A DNA stretch of 38,575 nt from Alphaproteobacteria bacterium. GTDB lineage: Bacteria; Pseudomonadota; Alphaproteobacteria; Sphingomonadales; Kordiimonadaceae. Position numbers and translations under genes: made by a program. The stretch covers positions 1-38,575 of the forward strand of contig SBGU01000012.1 in assembly GCA_006226495.1 (NCBI GenBank), read 5' to 3'. Positions 7,074 to 33,002 of this stretch are shown here, one piece after another (the first letter of the stretch is position 1; each line of letters opens with the position of its first letter). Below the pieces are notes generated by a model, which was not told where the DNA came from, ran no database searches, and worked only from the letters and a program-made list of their open reading frames with translations.

Positions 7074-7110
7074 CTCCCTCGTCATTCGCCGACTTGATCG
7101 GCGAATCCAG
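7074..7110 (+). repeat. REP-like palindromic repeat, left copy
   Basis: The palindrome at 7084-7106 has arms ATTCGCCGA and TCGGCGAAT around CTTGA, preceded by CTCCCTCGTC and followed by CCAG. The bases just outside (CGCCA..TCTCCCTCGTC) also match the copy at 16681, so homology extends beyond the stem. Confidence 0.85.
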
Positions 7111-7135
7111 TGCTGCCGTACCGCCACGCCCTGAG

Positions 7136-7423
7136 CTATCTAGAGACGTCCTCATACAGGTCACGCCAGTCCGGATTGCCTGCCTCGATCAGTTGCAGCT
7201 TCCATTGCCGTTTGTAACGCTTGAGTGCCTTTTCGCGGGTGATGGCCGCCTCCGCGGTGGTGTGGACCTCGAACCAGACAAGGCTGGTTACGTCATACCT
7301 GTCGCTGAAGCCTGGCGTGGCATGTTGCTTGTGTTCCCAGACCCGGCGCACGAGGTCATTGGTTACGCCAATATAGAGGGTGCCGTTCCGGCCGCTTGCC
7401 AGCATATATGTGTAGTAGGCCAT
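7136..7423 (-). CDS. GIY-YIG superfamily nuclease, small single-domain type
   Basis: The 95-residue protein carries the whole GIY-YIG core: YTYMLAS (about 4-10) and TLYIGVT (15-21) form the GIY...YIG pair, NDLVRRVWEH follows with the conserved Arg, and ITREKALKRYKR has the conserved Glu. It ends with NPDWRDLYEDV, the usual tail of the stand-alone UPF0213/YhbQ-like group. These enzymes are predicted to make nicks or breaks in DNA. It has no domain beyond the catalytic fold, so target choice would have to come from the DNA or a partner. The gene lies between inverted palindromes, 29 and 22 bases away, unlike its neighbours. GGGG before the ATG is a modest ribosome site. Confidence 0.92.
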   Translation of the reverse strand: MAYYTYMLASGRNGTLYIGVTNDLVRRVWEHKQHATPGFSDRYDVTSLVWFEVHTTAEAAITREKALKRYKRQWKLQLIEAGNPDWRDLYEDVSR

Positions 7424-7441
7424 GGCCCCATCTTCGGCCTA

Positions 7442-7478
7442 CTGGATTCGCCGGTCAAGCCGGCGAATGACGAGGAGG
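7442..7478 (-). repeat. REP-like palindromic repeat, right copy (inverted)
   Basis: The palindrome at 7446-7468 has arms ATTCGCCGG and CCGGCGAAT around TCAAG, with CTGG before and GACGAGGAGG after. It is the reverse complement of the left copy except for a few stem changes that keep pairing intact, for example GA/TC on the left against GG/CC here. Confidence 0.85.
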
Positions 7479-7588
7479 TGAGGACCCGCATGCCTTTGCG
7501 CCCCCACAATCCCTGTTCCCGCGTGCGGCAATCCGGTTTAGGCTCGGGGAAACCTTGCCGACGCCATCAGACGAGCCGGAACCTGCTT

Positions 7589-8731
7589 ATGCCTTTTATC
7601 TCCCCCTTGCGCCCGCGCGACATGACCGAGGCGCACCGTGCCGCAACACCCCTCGAACTGCTGTACGACCTTGTGTCGGTGATCGCCATCGCTGCGGCGG
7701 CGGCGGGGTTGCACCATGCCATTGCCGAGGCGCATTATCTCGACGGCATCATCAAGTTCCTGGCAGTGTTTTTTGGCATCTGGTGGGCCTGGATGAACTA
7801 TACCTGGTTTGCCTCGGCCTACGATAATGACGATGCCGCCTTCCGGCTGCTGACCATGGCCATCATGGGCGGTGCGCTGGTGATGGCGTCGGGGGTCGCG
7901 CCCTTTTTCACGCATCTGGATTTCCGGCTGATTGTCGCGGGCTTTGTGATCATGCGGCTGGCGATGGTGGTCCTGTGGCTGAGGGCCGCGGCGCAGGACG
8001 GCACACGCCGGCGCACCGCGCTCAGCTACGCCATCGGCATCACAATCGCGCAGGTGTGCTGGACCGGGCTTCTGCTGGCGCAGGGCTGGCTGGGGGCGCT
8101 GTTTTTCCCGCTTTATGGCCTGTGCGCCGTTATCGAACTGATGGTACCGGTCCTGGCCGAGCGGCAGGGCACCACACCCTGGCACCGGCATCATATGATC
8201 GAACGCTATGGCCTGTTGAACATCATCGTGCTGGGTGAAACCCTGCTCGCGGGTTCCATGGCGCTCGGGCGCGCGTCGGGCCCGGCCATGGACTGGCATC
8301 TGGTCGGCATCGCGGCGGCGGCGCTTGTGATCGTGTTTGCCCTATGGTGGCTGTATTTTGCGCGCGAGGACCATCTGGAAGAACACAAATTGTCCCGCGC
8401 GCTGAGCTGGGGTTATGGCCATCTGCTGGTCTATGTCGCGGGGGCTGCGGTGGGTGCAGGGTTTGCAGCACTGGTGGACATCAGCGCGCACCAGGCGCAT
8501 GCACCGCTGATCGCGGGGCTTTATGGTGTGGCGGTGCCGGTGGCGCTGTATTTTGTGGGCCTGTGGTTCGTGCGCGACCGTATTGCGCTTGGGCACACGC
8601 ACCACTGGGTGCTGCCCGCGTTTGCGGCCCTGATCCTTGCCGTGCCGCCGTTCGCCGGCATCTATGGCATCGCGGCCTTGACCATACTCGCGGTCCATAT
8701 CCGCGCCCGCATCGCCTGCCCGGCGCTTTAG
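7589..8731 (+). CDS. LtrA family (low temperature requirement protein A) membrane protein
   Basis: The 380-residue polytopic protein has about ten hydrophobic helices. It opens with the family signature TPLELLYDLVSVIAI (about residues 19-33) and carries HHMIERYGLLNIIVLGETLL (about 199-218), matching the conserved H-x-ERfG-IivLGE segment of LtrA (PF06772). LtrA was named from a Listeria locus needed for growth in the cold; its biochemical activity is not settled. The ATG at 7589 gives the full first helix. An ATG at 7622 is possible, and neither has a strong ribosome site. Its promoter region abuts the right palindrome of the GIY-YIG unit. It converges on the PIN-protein gene with only five bases between the stops and no hairpin there. 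Confidence 0.85.
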   Translation: MPFISPLRPRDMTEAHRAATPLELLYDLVSVIAIAAAAAGLHHAIAEAHYLDGIIKFLAVFFGIWWAWMNYTWFASAYDNDDAAFRLLTMAIMGGALVMASGVAPFFTHLDFRLIVAGFVIMRLAMVVLWLRAAAQDGTRRRTALSYAIGITIAQVCWTGLLLAQGWLGALFFPLYGLCAVIELMVPVLAERQGTTPWHRHHMIERYGLLNIIVLGETLLAGSMALGRASGPAMDWHLVGIAAAALVIVFALWWLYFAREDHLEEHKLSRALSWGYGHLLVYVAGAAVGAGFAALVDISAHQAHAPLIAGLYGVAVPVALYFVGLWFVRDRIALGHTHHWVLPAFAALILAVPPFAGIYGIAALTILAVHIRARIACPAL

Positions 8732-8736
8732 GGGGT

Positions 8737-11331
8737 TCAGTCCTTTTCCGCGACGGCCCTGGCGTAATATTTCAGCATTTCGGCATCCAGCGCGGTGATA
8801 ACCTCGCCCGAGGACAGATGTTCCTTCAGCAGGGCGTCGATTTTCCCGAGCAGGTCGCCGCACGGCGGCACCATGTTGTCGGCATACCGTTTCTGGAACC
8901 AGTGATAGAGCTCGATCTCGAGAAGCACATGCGGCGGCAGTATCTTGTGATGGCCTTGTGCGGGGTCCGACAGTTCGCTGACCGCCATGTCGATGATCGG
9001 CCAGTCCAGGTAACCCCGTTCAAGGCCGAACACATTCAGCATCAGGGTGCCGCTCAGCAAATTGGCGCAACATTGGGTCCTGACCGCCGTGCGCACCATT
9101 TCATACTGCTGGGCATAGCGTGCCGGGGGCGATGCATGCGGCAACAGGCTGAAGGCTTCCTGCAAATTGACCATGGCCTTGTAGAAAAATTCTTCCTCGT
9201 CTTCGGTTTCGCCCGCCCTGTCCTGCAGGAAACTGATTTTCCTGCCGCTGAGCTGGATGATCAGAAACTTGGTCAGCAGCAGGGTCGCCAGTTCGCTCAG
9301 CGACCGGGCCCGGATCAGGGTGTTGGTTTCATGCTCCAGAATTTCTTCATGGGTTTTTTCGGCTTTCTCCAGCACCTCGTGCAACTGTGCGGCCATGCAT
9401 TCGATGGCATGCATGGCGCCGCTGTCGCCGGCGGCCCTGTCGTCAAGCCTGTCCTGATCCATGGCGCCATAAAGCGCATTTGCCTGGAAGCGGCGGCACA
9501 CCGCATTGAAGAACAGCGCCTCGATATAATAGATATAGTCCGGGCCGGGGTTGGCCGCGGCCTCGCCGCCGATACCGCCCTGCGGTTTCGGAATCACATC
9601 AAGCGCGCGCAGGCTGTGTTCGGTCGCCGCATCCCACTGGTTCAGGCGGTAGGCCATATGGGCCGTCAACAGTGCCCGCCAGTGATAGGGCACGCTGTCG
9701 TTGCCGAACAGGGCCGACAGCCTGGCCGCGCCGGCCTTTGTTTCCGATTCCAGGAGCGTATCGACATAATTGACTTCAAGCGCTTCGTCGGGCCGGCAGA
9801 ACAGGAATGTATAGGGCGCCCGGCGCGGCCGGTCGTCCTGCGCGATATCGCCGCCGCTCAGGAACGAGATTGCCAGCCATTCCATGTGATTGCGATCAAG
9901 CTGGCGCAACAGCCCTTCCTGATATCTGACAAAGGCGCTGCCGATGGCGTCCCTGTCGGTTCCAAGCGACGCCAAGGAACTGATCAGGAATTTGATCTGC
10001 GCCAGCCTGGCACCATTATGCTGCAACAACAACTCCACATTCAGGCCCACGGCGTTGCGGGCCATTTCGACCCAAAGGCGGTAAGCCTGCGAGACATCGG
10101 CCCCGACACTGGGCCGGACCAGATGCGCCAGATTTTCGTCGGTCCAGCGGCGCCAGGCAGCCTCAAGGCGCTTGAGCCGGGGGGCGTCGCGTTCCTCGAG
10201 CTTGCGTTTGATCATCTCGAAATCCTCGATATGCTGACGAACGCTCAGCGCATCGCGGTACAGGGTCATGGTATATTTGTCGCCCCGGTTCTGGCTCGGG
10301 AACGCCAGCAGACTGTCCACGGCCCGGATCAGTTCGAAGGTAACCTGGCTGCGGCTGACAAAGTTCGGCATGTCCTGGAAGTTCAGGATCGGCACAAACT
10401 GGCTGAAGCGGCGCACAAAATCCTTTTCAAATGGCAGGTTCTTGCGATCCAGATACAGGGCGACAGCCGCCGGAATCTTGTGGTCGGTGGTTACGAACAG
10501 GTAGCGCGCCGGGATATTGTTGCTGAGACAATATTCATTGAGCGCAAAAATGATGGCCAGGCAGCGGGCATCGGTTTTCAGCGCCTTCGGCGTGCGCCGG
10601 CCGGCGCGGCTGCTGTTGTAGGCCGACAGCACATCGATCCATTCCTCGACATCTTCGTCAGGCGGGTTCAGGAGCTTCTGGTTCATGTAGGTCGACAGGG
10701 ACAGCGGCCTGATCAGCTCTTCCCGCGTCAGCCGGTCCAGTTGCATCGCGGCGGCCAGATTGTCGAGCTCGAACCGGGTGATCAGTTCCGGCACATCGCT
10801 TTCCAGAATCTGCCGCAGGATTTCGGGCTTGTCGCGGTTGTCCTGAATATCCTTCAGGCTGCTGCTGACCGCCGAACTGAGGTCCGCCTCAAGCGACCGC
10901 AGGAATTTGTGCGACTGGTATTTTTCGGCGTCCGCGAACAGGGCATGGCGATAGCCCAGCAGTTCCTGGGCATGGCCCTGCTCGATATAGACGGGATAGC
11001 CCTTCTGCCCCGGCAGGCTGCGCGAGAAGATATATTCCGCCGTAATACCGACCGTGGCGCGCCAGAAATCCTCGCTATAATCGCGCTTGCCGCTGGGGAA
11101 CGGGTTGACGTTCGGCGCTTCGCCCTTCGAGGTCAGGAACATGCGCGCCACATTGGTATCCACCACATAGATCGACTGCAGGGGATTGCTGTGGTCCGCC
11201 AGGTTGTTGGCCATCTCGATCCTGAACTGCAGCAGGTCGTTCATGTAATTGAGCGGCGCACCCTTTGAATCCCATTGTCCGCCGGGGTTGGCCGGCGCCG
11301 GGCGGGGCGAGGATGTCATGTTGTTATGCAT
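8737..11331 (-). CDS. Large PIN-domain protein with helical C-terminal region
   Basis: The 864-residue protein starts with a PIN-like ribonuclease domain: YVVDTN supplies D58, E99 lies in GITAEYIF, D254 in KTDARCLAIIFALN, and D283 in YLFVTTDHK. These match the four acidic positions that bind metal in PIN nucleases. About 150 residues, mostly predicted helix, separate the second and third acids, far more than in compact VapC toxins. Residues about 350-864 look all-helical and TPR-like, with no other motif I recognise. The ATG at 11331 overlaps the stop of the winged-helix gene by eight bases, implying coupling; an ATG at 11319 is the alternative. It is the last gene of a four-gene minus-strand operon. 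RNase activity is inferred from the acids. Confidence 0.75.
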   Translation of the reverse strand: MHNNMTSSPRPAPANPGGQWDSKGAPLNYMNDLLQFRIEMANNLADHSNPLQSIYVVDTNVARMFLTSKGEAPNVNPFPSGKRDYSEDFWRATVGITAEYIFSRSLPGQKGYPVYIEQGHAQELLGYRHALFADAEKYQSHKFLRSLEADLSSAVSSSLKDIQDNRDKPEILRQILESDVPELITRFELDNLAAAMQLDRLTREELIRPLSLSTYMNQKLLNPPDEDVEEWIDVLSAYNSSRAGRRTPKALKTDARCLAIIFALNEYCLSNNIPARYLFVTTDHKIPAAVALYLDRKNLPFEKDFVRRFSQFVPILNFQDMPNFVSRSQVTFELIRAVDSLLAFPSQNRGDKYTMTLYRDALSVRQHIEDFEMIKRKLEERDAPRLKRLEAAWRRWTDENLAHLVRPSVGADVSQAYRLWVEMARNAVGLNVELLLQHNGARLAQIKFLISSLASLGTDRDAIGSAFVRYQEGLLRQLDRNHMEWLAISFLSGGDIAQDDRPRRAPYTFLFCRPDEALEVNYVDTLLESETKAGAARLSALFGNDSVPYHWRALLTAHMAYRLNQWDAATEHSLRALDVIPKPQGGIGGEAAANPGPDYIYYIEALFFNAVCRRFQANALYGAMDQDRLDDRAAGDSGAMHAIECMAAQLHEVLEKAEKTHEEILEHETNTLIRARSLSELATLLLTKFLIIQLSGRKISFLQDRAGETEDEEEFFYKAMVNLQEAFSLLPHASPPARYAQQYEMVRTAVRTQCCANLLSGTLMLNVFGLERGYLDWPIIDMAVSELSDPAQGHHKILPPHVLLEIELYHWFQKRYADNMVPPCGDLLGKIDALLKEHLSSGEVITALDAEMLKYYARAVAEKD

Positions 11332-12553
11332 GGCCGGCGGCCACGGGCGCACCTGCGGCAAAGCCCTGTGCCGGTGCGGCCATCAGTCTGGCGCCCAGAA
11401 GGTCGAACCCGACATCGATGGCCTTCCGGCTGAAAGGTTCGTCGCCAAACAGCGACACACCGCCCCCGACCGGCTGGCGGTCGGAATTGTCGCGGCGATG
11501 GGTGCAGATCAGGCTTTCCACCATTTCGGCGGCATCGTCGGTCAGCATGGGCTGCAACTCCATCAGCTTGTCCAGAACCGTATCGTCCCGCGCAGGGATG
11601 CTGGCAAAGTTCAGGCCGGACAGGTTCCGTTTCAACAGGTCGCCCCAATCGTCGCCGTCCTGCGACAGGGTTGCCAGTTCATCGAGCGCATCGGCGATGC
11701 CCGTAAAAAACCGGCTTGCCAGGCGCCGATCCTCGCTGCGGAGATTGTCATATTCGAGATACAGCTTGTCGACACAGTTGCCATAACGGGTGCCCATGTT
11801 GGCCCGCGCCGCCGCCATGCCCATGAAGACCGGCGCCTGGTTGGCGGCTGCCGCCGTATCGCTGCCGGTGCCGGCCCCGAAATAATAACCGGCCCATGAC
11901 CAAAGCCATTTGCCTTCGCTGGGGTCTTCGTCGATCACCTTCATGGCCCAGCCGATTTCCTGGAGCCGCGCCTTCAGCCCGCTTTCGATCCGGTCTTCGA
12001 CCCTGCCGAAACGGTCGCTGCAGGCTTCCATGGCGTAACTGACCGGCAGATGCCGGAAGGTGTCGCCGACCTGCGCCCTGATGGCTTCGAGCAGGTGCCG
12101 GCTTTCGTCGATCAGATAATCGGCCTTGCCAAGGAACCGCTTGCGCACATAAAGCGGCCGGTCCTCGCGCTCCGCCTCGTCAAGGGTTTCGAGCGCGATA
12201 TCAAGCGACCTGATCCTCGGAATATCCGGCATCTTCACCTCAACGGTCGACACCCGGCCACCGACCTTGCGGTTCAGCTTTTCCAGGATGGCGCCAATGT
12301 GGGTTTCGCCAGCGCCGGACAGGCAGTACCGAACCGACGGCTGGCCCGGGCTGTCCCGGCGTTCGCGCTCCACTTTTTCCAGAAGTGCGGGATAGCGCTT
12401 CAGAAAGCGTTGCACGGTCGAGCGCACTGTCCGGATATTGAGCCCGGTCAGCAGCGCCAGTTCGTTCAATGTGAAGGTCTGCTCTTCAAACATGGCGGCC
12501 AGCAACGTGGCCTGGGTAACGGTGAGCGCCTCCGCCTGAGGCAGCATATCCAA
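11324..12553 (-). CDS. Winged-helix protein of a four-gene operon, function unknown
   Basis: The 409-residue protein has an N-terminal winged helix (about residues 10-90). TLNELALLTGLNIRTVRSTVQRFLKR gives the helix-turn-helix, and RDSPGQPSVRYCLSGAG gives the wing and an ensuing strand. The remaining 300 residues are helical, with a Gly/Ala-rich stretch YYFGAGTGSDTAAAANQAP, and match nothing I can name. The start is TTG at 12553, seven bases after GGGAG; an ATG two codons later (12547) is the alternative. The gene overlaps the PIN gene by eight bases and lies 74 bases after the Cys-rich HExxxH gene, so all three should be expressed together. It may be the regulator or a DNA-targeting component (inference). 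Confidence 0.68.
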   Translation of the reverse strand: MDMLPQAEALTVTQATLLAAMFEEQTFTLNELALLTGLNIRTVRSTVQRFLKRYPALLEKVERERRDSPGQPSVRYCLSGAGETHIGAILEKLNRKVGGRVSTVEVKMPDIPRIRSLDIALETLDEAEREDRPLYVRKRFLGKADYLIDESRHLLEAIRAQVGDTFRHLPVSYAMEACSDRFGRVEDRIESGLKARLQEIGWAMKVIDEDPSEGKWLWSWAGYYFGAGTGSDTAAAANQAPVFMGMAAARANMGTRYGNCVDKLYLEYDNLRSEDRRLASRFFTGIADALDELATLSQDGDDWGDLLKRNLSGLNFASIPARDDTVLDKLMELQPMLTDDAAEMVESLICTHRRDNSDRQPVGGGVSLFGDEPFSRKAIDVGFDLLGARLMAAPAQGFAAGAPVAAGHA

Positions 12554-12627
12554 GTCGTCACTCCCTGCAATCCGGTGCCTGCGACCCGGGCCGCAGCACC
12601 ATTATTAATGCAATTGAATTATTATTA
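12554..12627 (-). promoter_or_regulatory. AT-rich spacer inside the PIN operon
   Basis: This 74-base gap is the only sizeable break in the operon. Its upstream third (12598-12627) is strongly AT-rich (repeated ATT/AAT triplets around CAATTG), unlike the rest of the region. It could hold a secondary promoter for the winged-helix and PIN genes. I see no clean -35/-10 pair. Confidence 0.3.
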
Positions 12628-13893
12628 TCACGCTTTGGCGCGCGGCACAAGTTTCATGTCGGTCACAAATTGCCTGAGCTTGTTGTGGCAGATCCGGCTG
12701 GAAGGGGATTTGGCGATACCGTCGAGGTAGGAGACAAACCGCCCCTCGCAACGCTGGCTTTTGGCGGCATCCAGTCCGACATGGGCAAAAAGCCGCGCCT
12801 CCCAGTCGACAATCAGCACCAGGAGGTCGTTGCGGAACTGTTCGTCGAACGGCTGCAGATTGAGCGCAAAGACCACACGCCGGGCCCAGACCCCTTTCTG
12901 CTTGCAGGACAGGTTGCGCCGGTGCCGGTCCTCCAGCCGCTTCAGCACATCAAGCCCGGCCCGGCCGGCGTCGATCTCGCCCGGCAGCGCGCGGTCTTCG
13001 CCCAGGCGCATGGTGTCCCGGCGCGCCTGCGCCGCCCTGAGGGCGCTGGAATTGTCGCGCGCCCATTTGGAAGCATCCAGTTCCTGATAGACCGCCTCGT
13101 CGACAAGCCCGTCGGCAAAGGCGATGAAGCGTTTCGGCGGTTTTGGTGCGGCGCGGCCAAAAACCTCCTGCACGGCATGGACCGCCATTTCATGAAGCGC
13201 GACATAGACCAGCGAATGGAACACCGACTGGTCCAGGGTGCGGGTCGGCACCGAAATGCCGATTTTCGCCTCCGGTATCTGGTTCACAAAATCATGGCTG
13301 GTGATGCCGTTGACTTGCCTGACGGCGGAATTGGCATTGCCCCGCACCGTCACGCGCGCAAGCACCTGCTCGTTCAGTTTCGGGAAATGCCGGCGATACA
13401 TTTCCTCCGCCAGGGTGGCCGCGATATCGATGCGGCGAAAAACGGAATCCAGGCACGCCGGCGGGTCGGGCTTGTCGTCCTTGCGTGCCGTATGCCAACA
13501 GGATTTATGCTTGCCCGTGCAGGACCGCGACAGGGTGCAGGATTTACAGTGCCGGTATTTTTCGGAAACCGCCATGAAGCCGTCCAGAAGCGGCTGCAGC
13601 ACGTCCGCCGCGCCGGCGTCGTTTTTCCGGTTTTGTTCCTGCCGGGCCGTAACCTTGCTGCAAACCTCGTCGATCAGTTCCGAAAGGTCGCGCCGGTCAT
13701 GGCTGAAACCGTCGTCGAAAACCGCGGCAACCGCCTCGTCCACCAGTTTCCTGGCATAATCGGCGGGGGTGCCGCCCTGCAACAGGATGCCCGTTGCCGG
13801 CTGCTCGAGATATTTGAAGACATGATGATAGGCATACAGGCGCCGCCGCAGCGGTCGTTCATCCGCATCAAAATTCAGGTCGATACGAACCAT
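12628..13893 (-). CDS. Cys-rich protein with HExxxH motif, putative metalloprotease
   Basis: The 421-residue protein has a helical N-terminus, then a cysteine cluster C116-x2-C119-x5-C125-x6-C132 with C147 further on, suited to zinc or an iron-sulfur centre. A helix then contains HEMAVH (234-239). HExxxH is an established zinc motif in dipeptidyl peptidase III (family M49), and a downstream acid, E266 in GLVDEAVYQE, could be the third ligand. The classical HExxH is absent, so protease activity is an inference. The ATG at 13893 is chosen because it shares one base with the TGA of the upstream 113-residue gene, a typical coupled junction. I do not recognise the family. The context with wHTH and PIN genes suggests a multi-component stress or defence system. 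Confidence 0.62.
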   Translation of the reverse strand: MVRIDLNFDADERPLRRRLYAYHHVFKYLEQPATGILLQGGTPADYARKLVDEAVAAVFDDGFSHDRRDLSELIDEVCSKVTARQEQNRKNDAGAADVLQPLLDGFMAVSEKYRHCKSCTLSRSCTGKHKSCWHTARKDDKPDPPACLDSVFRRIDIAATLAEEMYRRHFPKLNEQVLARVTVRGNANSAVRQVNGITSHDFVNQIPEAKIGISVPTRTLDQSVFHSLVYVALHEMAVHAVQEVFGRAAPKPPKRFIAFADGLVDEAVYQELDASKWARDNSSALRAAQARRDTMRLGEDRALPGEIDAGRAGLDVLKRLEDRHRRNLSCKQKGVWARRVVFALNLQPFDEQFRNDLLVLIVDWEARLFAHVGLDAAKSQRCEGRFVSYLDGIAKSPSSRICHNKLRQFVTDMKLVPRAKA

Positions 13894-14234
13894 CAGCCCT
13901 GCCCGCCGTCTCCGCCGGCTTCTTTGAACTGGCCGCCGAATTTGCGGTCGAGCGCGGGGCGGATGAACCTGTCCCACACATATTGTGCCGCCGCCTTGCC
14001 AAGCCCGCCGGCAAAGGCCACAAGGAATGCCTCATAAACACCGCCGATGCGGTGCCCTTCGTCCGTGACCCTGAAATCGCCGGGCTTGACCTGCGCCAGC
14101 ATGGCGCGGTCCTCGGCGCTGATGTCCGGGTCGGCCCGCCAGTCGGCAACAATGTCGTCCATCAGGGCATTCAGCTCTGTCGGACGGTCCATGTCACATG
14201 TGAATTTACCGATTACAATGTCGTCGCCTGACAT
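13893..14234 (-). CDS. Small protein opening the PIN operon, function unknown
   Basis: The 113-residue protein has GGAGG nine bases before its ATG, the best ribosome site in this operon. An acidic first half (residues 1-60, including DDIVADWRADPDISAEDRAM) is followed by a helical, Gly/Ala-rich segment YEAFLVAFAGGLGKAAAQYVWDRF (about 67-90, shown here in part as FAGGLGKAAAQYV) and a Gly-rich tail. The segment is too polar at its ends to be a certain membrane helix. It resembles no domain I can name. Its stop is shared with the start of the HExxxH gene. As first gene with the strongest ribosome site it may be made in excess, as expected of an adaptor, inhibitor or substrate (inference). Confidence 0.62.
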   Translation of the reverse strand: MSGDDIVIGKFTCDMDRPTELNALMDDIVADWRADPDISAEDRAMLAQVKPGDFRVTDEGHRIGGVYEAFLVAFAGGLGKAAAQYVWDRFIRPALDRKFGGQFKEAGGDGGQG

Positions 14235-14616
14235 GCTCTTTCCTCCTGTGAGCGAACTCTTCCCGGAGGCCAGGCGCCTTGTCCTTCGCCAAAATACTTA
14301 ATCTGAAACAATACCTTGAACAAAAATCGGCTTTTGTACCAAGACACGCGACCAACCTTCTGCCGCACCCTTCGGTGCGCACAGCCTGTGCGGCTTCAAA
14401 TACGCGGCAAACAATCAATAAAAGAACAATACAACTAAAATTGCAGCCGAACAATAATCAATCCGCGCATTACGCAACCGCAGGGACTCATTTTTGCCCG
14501 CCCGCGCCAGGAATACTGCCCACACCAGCCCCTGAACCGGAGCGTCCGCCAAAACCGGGCGCCCCATGAAAAAGGGCGCCCGCGGGCGCCCTGATCCTGT
14601 GTTCCGTGTGCCGGCT
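14235..14616. other. 382-base intergenic region upstream of the PIN operon
   Basis: The middle (about 14280-14460) is AT-rich compared with its surroundings. On the minus strand TTGTTC (14318-14323) and TAAGTA (14295-14300) with 17-bp spacing are a plausible promoter for the four-gene operon. Two adjacent hairpins, GCACC/GGTGC (14365-14378) and CGCACA/TGTGCG (14378-14392), lie further upstream. The sequences AACAATCAAT and AACAATAATCAAT recur at 14410-14462. The right end holds the terminator of the DUF885 gene. No coding frame is convincing. Confidence 0.5.
14569..14592 (-). terminator. Intrinsic terminator of the DUF885 gene
   Basis: The 20-bp perfect palindrome at 14573-14592 (arms AGGGCGCCCG) is followed on the minus strand by a TTTTT run. 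It begins 25 bases after the DUF885 stop. Confidence 0.85.
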
Positions 14617-16935: not shown

Positions 16936-16999
16936 GGTGCCTGGGGCGAAATCAGGAGAGAGGGCGGCAGGCGCGGTCCGTATCGCAAAAAATAAAAAA

Positions 17000-17374
17000 G
17001 CAGATGGCCTGTAAGCCGGGTTCTGTCCGGCGGGTTGCCCCGCCTGGATGGCCATTCCTCTAGGCGGGCTGTTGCCAGCCGCGCTCAAGCGACCTACCAC
17101 GATGACGGCGCGAAAACCCGCCTGTCCACTGAAGGACAATCATCCATTTGGTCTTGCTCCCGGTGGGGTTTACCATGCCGCCCCTGTTGCCAGGCGCGCG
17201 GTGCGCTCTTACCGCACCCTTTCATCCTTGCCGGGCCGAAGCCCTCGGCGGTTTGCTTTCTGTGGCACTTTCCCTGGGGTCGCCCCCGCCGGCCGTTAAC
17301 CGGCACCGTGTTTCCGTGGAGCCCGGACTTTCCTCCCCCCGCTTGCGCGGGCGGCGACCATCCGGCCATCTGCC
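17000..17374 (-). ncRNA. rnpB: RNase P RNA (M1 RNA), class A, alphaproteobacterial
   Basis: Read on the minus strand, the conserved elements appear in order: GAGGAAAGTCCGGGCTCC near the 5' end (17318-17335), GAAAGTGCCACAGAAA, AAGGGTGCGGTAAGAGCGC, AAACCCCACCGGGAGCAAG, AGAGGAATGGCC, and finally GACAGAACCCGGCTTACAGG (17008-17027). The termini pair as helix P1: GCAGATGGCC at the 5' end (complement of 17364-17373) with GGCCATCTGC at the 3' end (complement of 17000-17009). This RNA is the catalytic subunit that trims tRNA 5' leaders. Length of about 375 nt is normal. A promoter lies just upstream and a T-rich tract follows. End positions are good to a few bases. Confidence 0.97.
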
Positions 17375-29730: not shown

Positions 29731-30099
29731 ATGGCAGGCGATATCAAACTCAGTGACCAGCAGTATCAGATTGTCCAGGCGCTTTGGGCGCTGGGCGAAG
29801 GTTCGGCCAAGGACGTGCAGGCACGGCTTCGCGAAGCCCTTGCGCACACCACCGTCGGCACAATCCTGTCGCGGCTTGAAACCCGCGGTGTGCTGGCCTC
29901 CGAACTGCGCGGCCGTGAACGCATCTACCGTGCCCTGATCAGCGAGGGGGATGTACGCCGCTCGATGGTTTCGTCCCTGGTGTCGACCCTGTTCAAGGGC
30001 GACAGCAAGGCGCTCCTTGCGCACCTCGTCAACGAAGGCGACATCGACGCCGACGAACTGAAAGACATCCGGGCCCTTCTCGGGGAGGAACAGCCATGA
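29731..30099 (+). CDS. BlaI/MecI-family transcriptional repressor
   Basis: The 122-residue winged-helix protein matches the penicillinase-repressor family: LSDQQYQIVQALWALGEGSAKDVQ, then HTTVGTILSRLETRGVLASELRGRERIYRAL, and a C-terminal dimer helix pair (MVSSLVSTLFKGDSKALLAHL), each shortened here to its key parts. Such repressors bind TACA/TGTA dyads and are cut or released when the partner M56 protease is activated. The expected operators sit 13-50 bases upstream. Its stop overlaps the start of the M56 gene (ATGA), so the pair is one unit. No beta-lactamase gene is nearby, so the regulated function is not necessarily drug resistance. Confidence 0.92.
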   Translation: MAGDIKLSDQQYQIVQALWALGEGSAKDVQARLREALAHTTVGTILSRLETRGVLASELRGRERIYRALISEGDVRRSMVSSLVSTLFKGDSKALLAHLVNEGDIDADELKDIRALLGEEQP

Positions 30100-33002
30100 T
30101 GACCGAACTTTTCACAGACCTGCCGATTGTCGGCCTGTTCCTGAAATTCATGGTGGCCAGCACCGTGCTTCTGGGTTCCGTCTGGCTGCTTGAACGCCTG
30201 AATATCCTGAAGCTGCCCGATCTCAGCGAACTGGCCTGGAAACTGGCTGTGGGCGCCGCCTTTGTAGCCGTACTGCCGATCGGCGACTGGCTTTCGGGCC
30301 CGATCACCATCCATCATTCCGAAGCAAGGGCTTTGGTAGAACAGTTTGAAGCCGGTCGTCCGATCCGGGGGGATGCCAAAGAAAAGACCATGCCGGAACA
30401 TACCGTCGGGCAGTGGTTCCCGATGGAAAACACGGCACCCGCCATGATCCTGACCCAGGAAGATCATGCCCAGCTCAAAGCCGTGCTTGAAGACCGCAGC
30501 GCCATTATCGAAAAAGCGCAGGAACAACTGGCCCAGATGAAATCCGGCGGCCTTGTGCTGCGGGTCAGCCCCGAACAGACGCTTGTCCTGGATGAAAAGT
30601 CGACGCAGCAGCTTGAGCGCGACGCCGCCTCCGTCTCGGACCGCATCAACAACAATATCCAGAACAAAGCACCGGGTTTCACGGTGCGCTCCGCCACCCC
30701 TGCTCCTCAAACCAACGGCATCATCCAACCCGAGGCCGACAGCGAGGAAACCATAACAAGCACTCTGGAGCAGTGGGTGGCGGCCTTGAGCTACCGCGAC
30801 CTGGCAACCCTTGGCTGGGGCCTGATCGCCCTGATGGCCGTCTTCGCCCTGTGCATGGGCTACCGGTCGGCAATCCGGGATCTTGGCACCCGCAGCCGTG
30901 TCGATGCCGAACATCCGGCCAACCAGGCCCTGCGCGCCCTGTGCACCAAGGTGGACATCAAGCATGTGCCGTACCTGAGCCGGTCGTCCGACATCCACAG
31001 CCCGGTATGCCTGCCGCGTCGCGAAATCTGCCTGCCGGACTGGGTGTTTGATGCCCTGCCCGAGGCGGAATTGAAAAGTCTCCTTGCCCACGAACTGGGC
31101 CATATGGTCCGGCGCGACCCGCTGATGCTGATGATCATGCAACTGCTGTCGCGCCTTTTCTTCTTCCAGCCGCTGTTCAGCGTGGCACGCCGGCGGCTGA
31201 GCGACCTTGCGGAACTGTCTGCGGACGAATGGGCTGCGCGCCAGCTCGAGAATCCGCGTGCCGTTGCCGCAGCGCTTTTTACCTGTGCCACCAAAATACA
31301 TGACAGCAGAAACATACAGTGGGGATTAGCCATGGCTGGAAACAAATCCATGCTTAAAAAACGCGTCGAGCGCCTTGTCGGGGCCCGTGGCGCACACTTC
31401 AACAATGCCAGCACCGCCGCCAAAGGCCTGGTGATGGCGGGCGTCCTTGGCCTGGCACTGGGCCTGCCCAGCGTGCAGTTCGCAGACGCCCTGTCGATCA
31501 CTGCAGCCACCGATGAGCCCATGGTCGGCGGTGATGACGACGAGGCACGGGCGAAAGCGGAAGCCAAGGCCGCCAAAGCCGAAGCCAAGGCCAAAGCCAT
31601 GGCCGAGCGTGACCGCAAGCGGATGGAAGCCGAAATCGAACGCGCCACCCGTGTGAACGAACGTGAAATCGAGCGTGCCGCGCGCCAGGCCGAGCGTGAA
31701 GCCCGCCGGGCCGAACTGGCCGTGCGCGACATGGAACGTGACCATGAACACAGGGACGATGGCCGCCGCACCAGCATTCACATGAATGACGACAGCGGCA
31801 ACATCGTGTTCGTTGATGACGACTATGTGCTGAAGGCCAAATGGGACGGCGCTTTCACCCTGAACAAGGAAATGAACGCCATTGCCGACATGCGCCCTGA
31901 CAGTTGGCTTGATATCCGCACCATCGAGGACGGCGACAAACGCCGGGTGCATATCGAAAAAGATGGTGACAAGCTGGTGGAGACCTACTGGGTCGACGGC
32001 GACAAGAAGGCCATGGATGACGGGGGCCGCAAATGGCTCGCCAAAACGCTCGATACCATGACCCGCGAAACCGGCTGGATGGCGGCAGAACGCATCGACG
32101 CCCTCCTGAAAAAGGGTGGCACCAAGGCTGTGCTGGCCGAAATCAAGTCCGCCCGCACCGATTATATCAAGCGGCTCTATACCCAGCATCTGATCGAACT
32201 GGCAAACCTGAAGGACAAGGAAATCGAAGACCTGGTCGAGATCCTGGCCACCATGGACAGCGACTATGAACTTCGGAACGCCCTGACCATGCTGCTGACC
32301 GAAGAAAAGATCAGCGACAAGATCATGCCGAAGGTCCTGGCCGCCGCCAAATCGATCGACAGCGACTATGAATTGCGCCAGCTCTTGACCCCGTACCTGC
32401 AGCGTTTCCCGCTGGACGACCGCAGCACCGGCATCCTGATCGAACTGGCCGAACATATGGACAGCGACTATGAAATCCGCAACCTGCTGACCGTCGCCCT
32501 GCATGACAGGAACCTGTCGAAAAAGAATGTCGAGCGGCTGGTGAAAATCGCGACCGAGAATATCGACAGCGATTATGAAATGCGCCAGATGCTCGGGGCC
32601 TTCGCGACCCAGCTCAACAAGTCGACCGACGCCACCCGCACCCTGTTCGGTGCCGCCGCCGGCATGGACAGCGACTATGAAAAGCGCATGACCATCGATC
32701 TGTTGATCAGCGAAGGTGCGATGGACATCGCCAACTGGGGTGCGGCGATCGAAACCGCCAGCGGCATCGACAGCGATTATGAAAAGTCTGAATCCCTGAC
32801 CCACATCCGCGCCATGATGCCCGACAATGCCGACCTGAAGAAACGCATGGAAACCGCGATCCGCGGCATCGATTCCGACTATCACCGCAAGCGCATGACC
32901 GGCGAGGACGACCGCCATGCCACCGTACCGCCGGTGGCACCGGTTCCCGCCGTGACACCGACGCCGTCCGCCGGTGAAAACGCGCAGGTCAAGGCTGGCT
33001 GA
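30096..33002 (+). CDS. M56 (BlaR1-like) membrane metallopeptidase with coiled coil and DSDY repeat array
   Basis: The 968-residue protein starts with two helices (11-33, 46-67), a periplasmic loop, a third helix (about 236-257) and the M56 zincin with HELGH at 332-336. A fourth helix lies at about 444-466. Beyond it come a charged Ala/Glu/Arg coiled coil (about 485-549), a beta-rich segment, and seven repeats starting at residues 720, 754, 788, 823, 857, 891 and 925. Each opens with (M/I)DSDY, mostly followed by E, at a pitch of 34 (once 35). A Pro-rich tail ends the protein. BlaR1 proteins sense beta-lactams through a C-terminal penicillin-binding domain; none is visible here. The protease should cut the co-encoded BlaI-type repressor (inference). 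GGGAGGAA gives a strong ribosome site. Confidence 0.88.
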   Translation: MMTELFTDLPIVGLFLKFMVASTVLLGSVWLLERLNILKLPDLSELAWKLAVGAAFVAVLPIGDWLSGPITIHHSEARALVEQFEAGRPIRGDAKEKTMPEHTVGQWFPMENTAPAMILTQEDHAQLKAVLEDRSAIIEKAQEQLAQMKSGGLVLRVSPEQTLVLDEKSTQQLERDAASVSDRINNNIQNKAPGFTVRSATPAPQTNGIIQPEADSEETITSTLEQWVAALSYRDLATLGWGLIALMAVFALCMGYRSAIRDLGTRSRVDAEHPANQALRALCTKVDIKHVPYLSRSSDIHSPVCLPRREICLPDWVFDALPEAELKSLLAHELGHMVRRDPLMLMIMQLLSRLFFFQPLFSVARRRLSDLAELSADEWAARQLENPRAVAAALFTCATKIHDSRNIQWGLAMAGNKSMLKKRVERLVGARGAHFNNASTAAKGLVMAGVLGLALGLPSVQFADALSITAATDEPMVGGDDDEARAKAEAKAAKAEAKAKAMAERDRKRMEAEIERATRVNEREIERAARQAEREARRAELAVRDMERDHEHRDDGRRTSIHMNDDSGNIVFVDDDYVLKAKWDGAFTLNKEMNAIADMRPDSWLDIRTIEDGDKRRVHIEKDGDKLVETYWVDGDKKAMDDGGRKWLAKTLDTMTRETGWMAAERIDALLKKGGTKAVLAEIKSARTDYIKRLYTQHLIELANLKDKEIEDLVEILATMDSDYELRNALTMLLTEEKISDKIMPKVLAAAKSIDSDYELRQLLTPYLQRFPLDDRSTGILIELAEHMDSDYEIRNLLTVALHDRNLSKKNVERLVKIATENIDSDYEMRQMLGAFATQLNKSTDATRTLFGAAAGMDSDYEKRMTIDLLISEGAMDIANWGAAIETASGIDSDYEKSESLTHIRAMMPDNADLKKRMETAIRGIDSDYHRKRMTGEDDRHATVPPVAPVPAVTPTPSAGENAQVKAG
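32253..32900 (+). repeat. Coding tandem array, seven units of about 102 bases (DSDY repeats)
   Basis: Unit starts at 32253, 32355, 32457, 32562, 32664, 32766 and 32868 mark the codons of the (M/I)DSDY motif, with spacing 102 bases except one of 105. The motif codons GACAGCGACTATGAA are nearly constant, while the 29 residues between motifs differ widely, so selection on protein shape rather than recent DNA duplication explains the pattern. Confidence 0.9.

Follow-up and report, generated by a model that had tools for sequence, protein, structure and literature searches.

A minus-strand four-gene operon with a predicted 864-residue PIN-type RNase, a candidate conflict module of an alphaproteobacterial genome

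The window analysed here is a stretch of 38,575 nucleotides from an Alphaproteobacteria bacterium of the Kordiimonadaceae (contig SBGU01000012.1 of assembly GCA_006226495.1), in which a run of four minus-strand genes at 8737-14234 ends with the gene of an 864-residue protein (P0001). From its motifs and conservation, P0001 is very probably an RNase of the PIN type, and distant homologues were located in three other genomes, where different genes precede them. The chances are about even that the whole run is an accessory, horizontally exchanged conflict module, the effector of which would be this metal-dependent RNase, held off by an upstream partner. Considered separately, a conflict or defence role for the operon is somewhat better favoured than that, and restraint of the PIN effector by a partner falls a little short of even. 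The type of conflict would probably be anti-phage, by abortive infection. The parts of the run, from its 5′ end, are:

13893-14234, minus strand: gene 1 (P0004), 113 residues, no family match
12628-13893, minus strand: gene 2 (P0003), 422 residues, ATG start, putative zinc protein or metallopeptidase with a cysteine cluster and HExxxH
12554-12627, minus strand: gap of 74 bases between genes 2 and 3, with an AT-rich 5′ end and a Shine-Dalgarno-like GGGAG ahead of the TTG of gene 3
11324-12553, minus strand: gene 3 (P0002), 409 residues, TTG start, probable N-terminal winged helix
8737-11331, minus strand: gene 4 (P0001), 864 residues, N-terminal PIN-like domain with conserved acids

The coordinates agree with an earlier sequence-only reading of this DNA as to strand, the overlaps of one base (genes 1 and 2) and eight bases (genes 3 and 4), and the length of the gap. 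Codon statistics support all four genes as coding: genes 4, 3, 2 and 1 score 0.53, 0.49, 0.40 and 0.43 bits per codon, compared with -0.01 to 0.09 for four antisense open reading frames (ORFs) and 0.16-0.58 for ten Pfam-matched genes of the window. The codon model was trained on eleven Pfam-matched genes, which are the ten scored controls and an LtrA-family gene that was not itself scored. At E<=1, none of the four proteins was matched by NCBIfam or PADLOC, and genes 1, 2 and 4 were without a match in Pfam and PHROGs, where gene 3 had weak matches only. The scans of Pfam, NCBIfam and PADLOC agree with the earlier statement, by which this gene set is not known from any named system. The set was also not found described in the open-access literature searched, which mostly lacks subscription papers and hence is weak evidence of novelty.

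The PIN-like protein and its distant relatives

P0001 consists of a PIN-like domain at residues ~50-325 followed by a C-terminal region of ~540 residues. Four acids, D58, E123, D254 and D283, are aligned without exception in all four known homologues, within the contexts DTN, H-x-x-E, DA-x-x-LA and T-x-D, respectively; we take this order and these contexts to be those of PIN/VapC proteins. Other residues invariant in all four include D58-T-N-V, L106-P-G-Q, H120, D254-A, L258-A and T281. The acid set proposed from the sequence alone was D58, E99, D254 and D283, of which the first and the last two hold; position 99 is occupied by E, D, R and E in the four homologues, and the invariant E123 takes its place. 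A long stretch separates the second and third acids of P0001 and is kept in its relatives. The PIN assignment of P0001 is supported by the motif together with its conservation across distant homologues.

The relatives were found by stepwise searches of genome sets that overlap and are all samples. Of the 59 genomes searched as relatives, 58 had no match to P0001 and the remaining one was that of the window. A joined query of the four proteins against 398 genomes of the phylum returned the own genome, genome G652 (E 3.7e-7; locus L012, PIN protein P0005) and two matches judged to be chance. A two-row profile then returned, from 396 genomes of the order, the own genome, G652 and G1041 (E 3.3e-12; locus L019, PIN protein P0008), and a three-row profile returned G652 and G1131 (E 5.9e-93; locus L038, PIN protein P0011) from 17 genomes of the genus of G652. 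The three-row profile found only the own genome among 327 of the class and only G1041 among 12 of its genus. No match to P0001 was found in a scan of genome contigs, viral contigs scanned with P0001 and A2 were blank, and nothing was found in plasmids or phages with P0001, P0002, P0004, P0005, P0006 and P0008.

The three relatives are 18-23% identical to P0001 over the alignment and 28% (G652), 20% (G1041) and 28% (G1131) identical over residues 50-325 of P0001, while pairs of family members are 18-30% identical over the C-terminal ~540 residues. BLASTP against P0001 gave E values of 5e-12 (G652), 1e-4 (G1041) and 2e-6 (G1131), and the G1041 protein matched the other two relatives with E 2e-42 and 2e-81.

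Several further candidates were set aside. The joined-query match in G591 (L005) was judged to be chance, as it crosses a stop at the end of an ankyrin-like ORF. The same judgement was made of a tblastn match in G702 (L015; E 9.6e-6 to residues 263-320 of P0001), where a frame of 340 residues has the T-x-D but neither the DTN nor the DA-x-x-LA stretch. Seven other genomes returned by the joined query from the order (E 0.001-0.008) were judged to be chance after tblastn at E<=0.5, which gave matches at two of the seven loci: at L030 the match (E 2e-6, residues 96-164 of P0003) reads across a stop, and at L032 it covers 21 residues (E 0.018).

Partner genes and the insertion site

At all four loci the PIN gene is the last of its strand run and its start is overlapped by its upstream neighbour, by eight bases in the window and by four (ATG) in L012, L019 and L038. 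The genes ahead of it differ: proteins of 533 and 272 residues precede the PIN protein in G652, 374 and ~417 residues in G1041, and 329 and ~290 residues in G1131. The PIN-adjacent proteins of G1041 (L019 7784-9034) and G1131 (L038 3484-4353) are related to each other (BLASTP E 1.8e-7) and have no Pfam match above threshold. None of the partner proteins of the relatives has significant similarity to genes 1-3 of the window, and tblastn of genes 1-3 in the three regions (18-19.5 kb each) found nothing at E<=0.5. Homologues that never occur together had been named earlier as grounds for refutation; as far as these three loci go, they speak against the four-gene set, but not against a coupled pair of partner and PIN gene. 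The 533-residue protein of G652 matches LmuA of PADLOC (E 5.3e-46, residues 10-258) and also an NAD-binding Rossmann family. Mobile-element genes are found near the operon of each relative: in G652 an ORF bearing the Arm-DNA-binding domain of an integrase, in G1041 a complete tyrosine integrase, and in G1131 transposases of IS66 and IS110.

Two further features of the window delimit the run:

14573-14592, minus strand: terminator-like hairpin of 8 pairs, 7 of them G-C, between the DUF885 gene and gene 1
7094-8731, plus strand: LtrA-family gene, convergent with gene 4, five bases away, and part of the same inserted stretch

The hairpin suggests that the four genes form a transcription unit separate from DUF885; terminator-like sites in the region number 8, against a mean of 6.6 in shuffled sequence. 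A consensus scan of the 74-base gap found no promoter. Together with the LtrA gene, the four genes fill the slot between a gene for a Met-zincin (DUF5117/DUF4953) and the DUF885 gene. In the congeners G004 and G011 the operon is absent, and the Met-zincin homologue is followed by DUF885 and then by DNA resembling the region of rnpB. The interval from Met-zincin to DUF885 is ~160 bases in G004, and in G011 it contains an RNase_T exonuclease besides a GIY-YIG-like ORF; that of the window contains a GIY-YIG ORF too, in addition to LtrA and the operon. The DNA matches of the congeners are 66-76% identical to the window, apart from the rnpB stretch in G004 (80%) and one 39-base match in G011 (95%). 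Just two congeners are comparable at the site, because three of 26 genomes, that of the window among them, gave a DUF885 match at E<=1e-30. LtrA had no match in L013 or L014. The G+C content of the inserted stretch, 58-64%, does not stand out. The contents of the Met-zincin/DUF885 interval differ in the three genomes, and this interval beside rnpB may be an insertion hot spot.

Since one effector is found with several upstream gene sets, beside mobile-element genes, at a variable site and in a patchy distribution, it can be read as an exchangeable conflict effector. The same observations, with the LmuA-like gene, lend indirect support to the defence-type role that had been suggested from the sequence. 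Under the reading as a conflict module, the long stretch within the PIN domain and the C-terminal region would restrain the RNase within a complex that also contains the upstream partner, to which it is coupled in translation. In the window that partner would be the winged-helix protein, which may sense or bind nucleic acid. A trigger would free the PIN domain, RNA would be cut and the infected cell would be arrested. The 113-residue protein and the HExxxH/Cys-rich protein might form the locus-specific sensor side, and the latter, as a zinc protein, may cut one of the others.

A number of points weigh against this reading. The four acids shared by all the distant homologues uphold the PIN call made from the sequence alone, but hidden Markov model searches with P0001, its relatives and the family profile matched neither a PIN family nor a PIN structure. 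An AlphaFold model of residues 30-335 of P0001 alone had a mean predicted local distance difference test score (pLDDT) of 35.1, making the fold unusable. The family has four known members. The G1041 member is identified by the profile and by its closeness to the other two relatives, because tblastn with P0001 alone does not detect it in the 19.5-kb G1041 region at E<=0.5. PADLOC is also blank for the three PIN relatives, LtrA and GIY-YIG. The mobile-element genes adjoin the relatives' operons and are not shown to carry them, and the defence role is drawn from genomic context.

The G652 locus (L012 6680-9092), in which the LmuA-like 533-residue protein and a 272-residue protein with a GDAGG stretch (P0006) stand ahead of the PIN gene, is possibly a separate Lamassu-derived system; Pfam scans of a few neighbours revealed no SMC-like LmuB. 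The GDAGG stretch resembles that of an inactivated trypsin-like protease, a resemblance to which Pfam, PADLOC and PDB give no support. In G1041, P0010 has a STAND-like appearance by eye only, and its best Pfam match (E 0.038) is to another family. P0009 and P0012 appear helical, likewise by eye only.

Upstream genes of the window and alternative explanations

The HExxxH of P0003 comprises H234, E235 and H239, and E266, 27 residues on, is a guessed candidate for a third ligand. Five of the nine cysteines are at 116, 119, 125, 132 and 147. Both the HExxxH and the cysteine cluster that had been noted earlier are present, the former being weak as a motif because it arises in 2.1% of shuffles of P0003 (the CxxC-C-C cluster in 0.18%) and has no homologues in which to be compared. 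Pfam and NCBIfam, including Peptidase_M49, gave no family for P0003 at E<=1. Homologues were found in the own genome only among 385 genomes of the class, 398 of the phylum and 376 of the order, apart from weak chance-like matches, and P0003 was also unmatched in pattern scans of genome and viral contigs and in tblastn of plasmids and phages. AlphaFold of P0003 alone gave a pLDDT of 35.1. A zinc-binding region in P0003 is likely, and peptidase activity is only possible.

One alternative to simple restraint by a partner is a metalloprotease gate, by which the HExxxH protein would, upon infection, cut the PIN protein or the winged-helix protein that holds it and so free the RNase, in the way published for nucleases under a trypsin or caspase gate, although both the protease and the class of nuclease would differ. 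The four genes do lie in one operon-like run, and H234-E-xxx-H239 with E266 resembles the gluzincins. Pro-nucleases activated by proteases and carrying insertions that block the active site exist (PMC12799240), and P0001 has its long stretch between acids two and three. However, the operons of the three relatives encode nine proteins in all, and neither HExxxH nor HExxH occurs in any of them, yet the long stretch persists in their PIN proteins. Across the long frames of the relatives' regions such motifs turn up only twice, as HEFGH in a 1233-residue frame of L019 and as HEHGGH in a 216-residue frame of L038, both times outside the operons. Furthermore, the shuffle frequency is as given above, P0003 has neither a homologue in which conservation could be compared nor a Pfam peptidase match, and the gated nucleases described in PMC12799240 are of the metallo-β-lactamase (MBL) type, not PIN. 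Proteolytic switching of the nuclease, as first suggested from the sequence, is unsupported: genes 1-3 have no match in the relatives' regions and no M49 match was obtained. Because PIN relatives exist without an HExxxH gene and the motif has no homologues for comparison, such a switch, and the gate with it, is considered unlikely. More doubtful still is the fuller proposal of a hitherto undescribed family of long PIN RNase effectors with at least three upstream gene sets, of which that of the window would be a zinc-metalloprotease gate, giving a metalloprotease-activated RNase immunity.

Gene 3 bears on a second alternative. Its four Pfam matches are below threshold (E 0.038-0.11) and its four PHROG matches weak (E 0.015-0.36), with three of each within residues 7-67, where an N-terminal winged helix is probable; the feature stands, but not as the clear one that had been claimed, since the best matches (Pfam E 0.038, PHROG E 0.015) are sub-threshold. 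Pairs of a PIN toxin and a DNA-binding antitoxin are common, and the winged-helix protein could be the antitoxin and autoregulator of a PIN toxin, with genes 1 and 2 as passengers. The eight-base overlap of genes 3 and 4 and the 74-base gap with its AT-rich start, which sets off gene 2, would fit such a toxin-antitoxin-like pair. It is about as improbable as the gate, for P0001 is far larger than VapC (about 130 residues), the upstream proteins at the other three loci are not homologous to the winged-helix protein, and neither the VapB nor the VapC family was matched.

A stress-response or RNA-processing operon without a defence role, acquired for stable-RNA metabolism near the RNase P RNA gene, would suit the position of the inserted stretch near rnpB (RF00010, 16996-17373), but it is quite improbable: Met-zincin, DUF885 and rnpB-like DNA occur together in the operon-free G004 and G011, so that proximity to rnpB belongs to the insertion site, and the relatives are located elsewhere, near integrase or insertion sequence (IS) genes.

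Gene 1 has a Gly/Ala-rich stretch at residues 63-81, the hydropathy of which (1.19) is low for a membrane helix. In the joined queries (398 phylum and 376 order genomes), which included genes 1 and 3, at most two candidates were scored per genome, and gene 1 went unreported even in its own genome; these queries are therefore uninformative on gene 1 and say little on any third-ranked gene. Gene 1 was otherwise sought in plasmids only. An identification of gene 1 as EACC1 was rejected: the PF19953 model matched the genome weakly at six places (E<=10), all of them away from 13893-14234, and no true EACC1 members for closer comparison were found in a Streptomyces plasmid.

Relation to known systems and neighbouring features

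PIN nucleases are validated defence effectors in the systems DS-3 and DS-5 of DefensePredictor, in both of which the PIN RNase is essential; DS-5 also has a second, required partner protein and is likely not a toxin-antitoxin system (PMC13092281). The DS-5 partner differs in having a DUF5830 and an AcrIF4-like domain, a comparison made by description. That immune systems exchange effectors is established in the case of protease-gated nucleases (PMC12799240). The nuclease-protease pairs of Hachiman, AVAST, Lamassu and canu resemble the present operon in placing a nuclease and a protease (here putative) in one operon, and in the swapping of the effector among unrelated systems, an LmuA-like gene being in the operon of one PIN relative; in contrast, their nuclease is of the MBL type and their protease trypsin- or caspase-like, where the window has a PIN-like protein and a putative HExxxH metalloprotein (PMC12799240). 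No family of MBL-type nucleases or of trypsin- or caspase-like proteases was matched by genes 1-4 in Pfam, PADLOC or NCBIfam. As for Lamassu itself, PADLOC matched neither LmuA nor LmuB in the four window proteins, and the LmuA-like gene is found only in G652. VapBC is set apart from gene 4 by the 864 residues of the latter.

The TPR-GreA/B-C-PIN conflict system likewise has a constant PIN-bearing core with variable parts, but its PIN domain is C-terminal to TPR and GreA/B-C in one polypeptide, whereas that of P0001 is N-terminal and the variable parts are separate genes (PMC8195603); P0001, P0005, P0008 and P0011 have no Pfam match to GreA/B-C or TPR. The two-gene EACC1 system is similar in that a small gene encoding a Gly/Ala-rich stretch stands 5′ of a peptidase gene (here putative) (PMC7159879), and it differs in that its model is blank at gene 1 and in the hydropathy of the gene 1 stretch. 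The HExxxH metallopeptidases, M49 dipeptidyl peptidase III and the tubulin carboxypeptidases TMCP (PMC10499314), share with P0003 the HExxxH spacing and a downstream Glu, but P0003 matches none of their families and its third ligand is only guessed.

If the reading of the run as a conflict module is true, a family of PIN RNase effectors joins the pool exchanged by bacterial immune systems, and a single effector is seen to combine with several unrelated proteins encoded upstream, among them perhaps a metalloprotease. The operon would then also provide a compact four-gene cassette for asking how large PIN enzymes stay inactive without a VapB-like antitoxin.

Elsewhere in the window, the gene for bacterial RNase P class A RNA (RF00010, 297 bits) is at 16996-17373 on the minus strand. 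An ORF with a GIY-YIG endonuclease domain (7136-7423, minus strand, 95 residues, E 3e-14) overlaps the beginning of the LtrA frame in antisense, and the same slot of G011 holds a similar-looking GIY-YIG ORF. At 30096-33002 on the plus strand, a protein of 968 residues of the BlaR1-type M56 peptidase kind has a long C-terminal extension.

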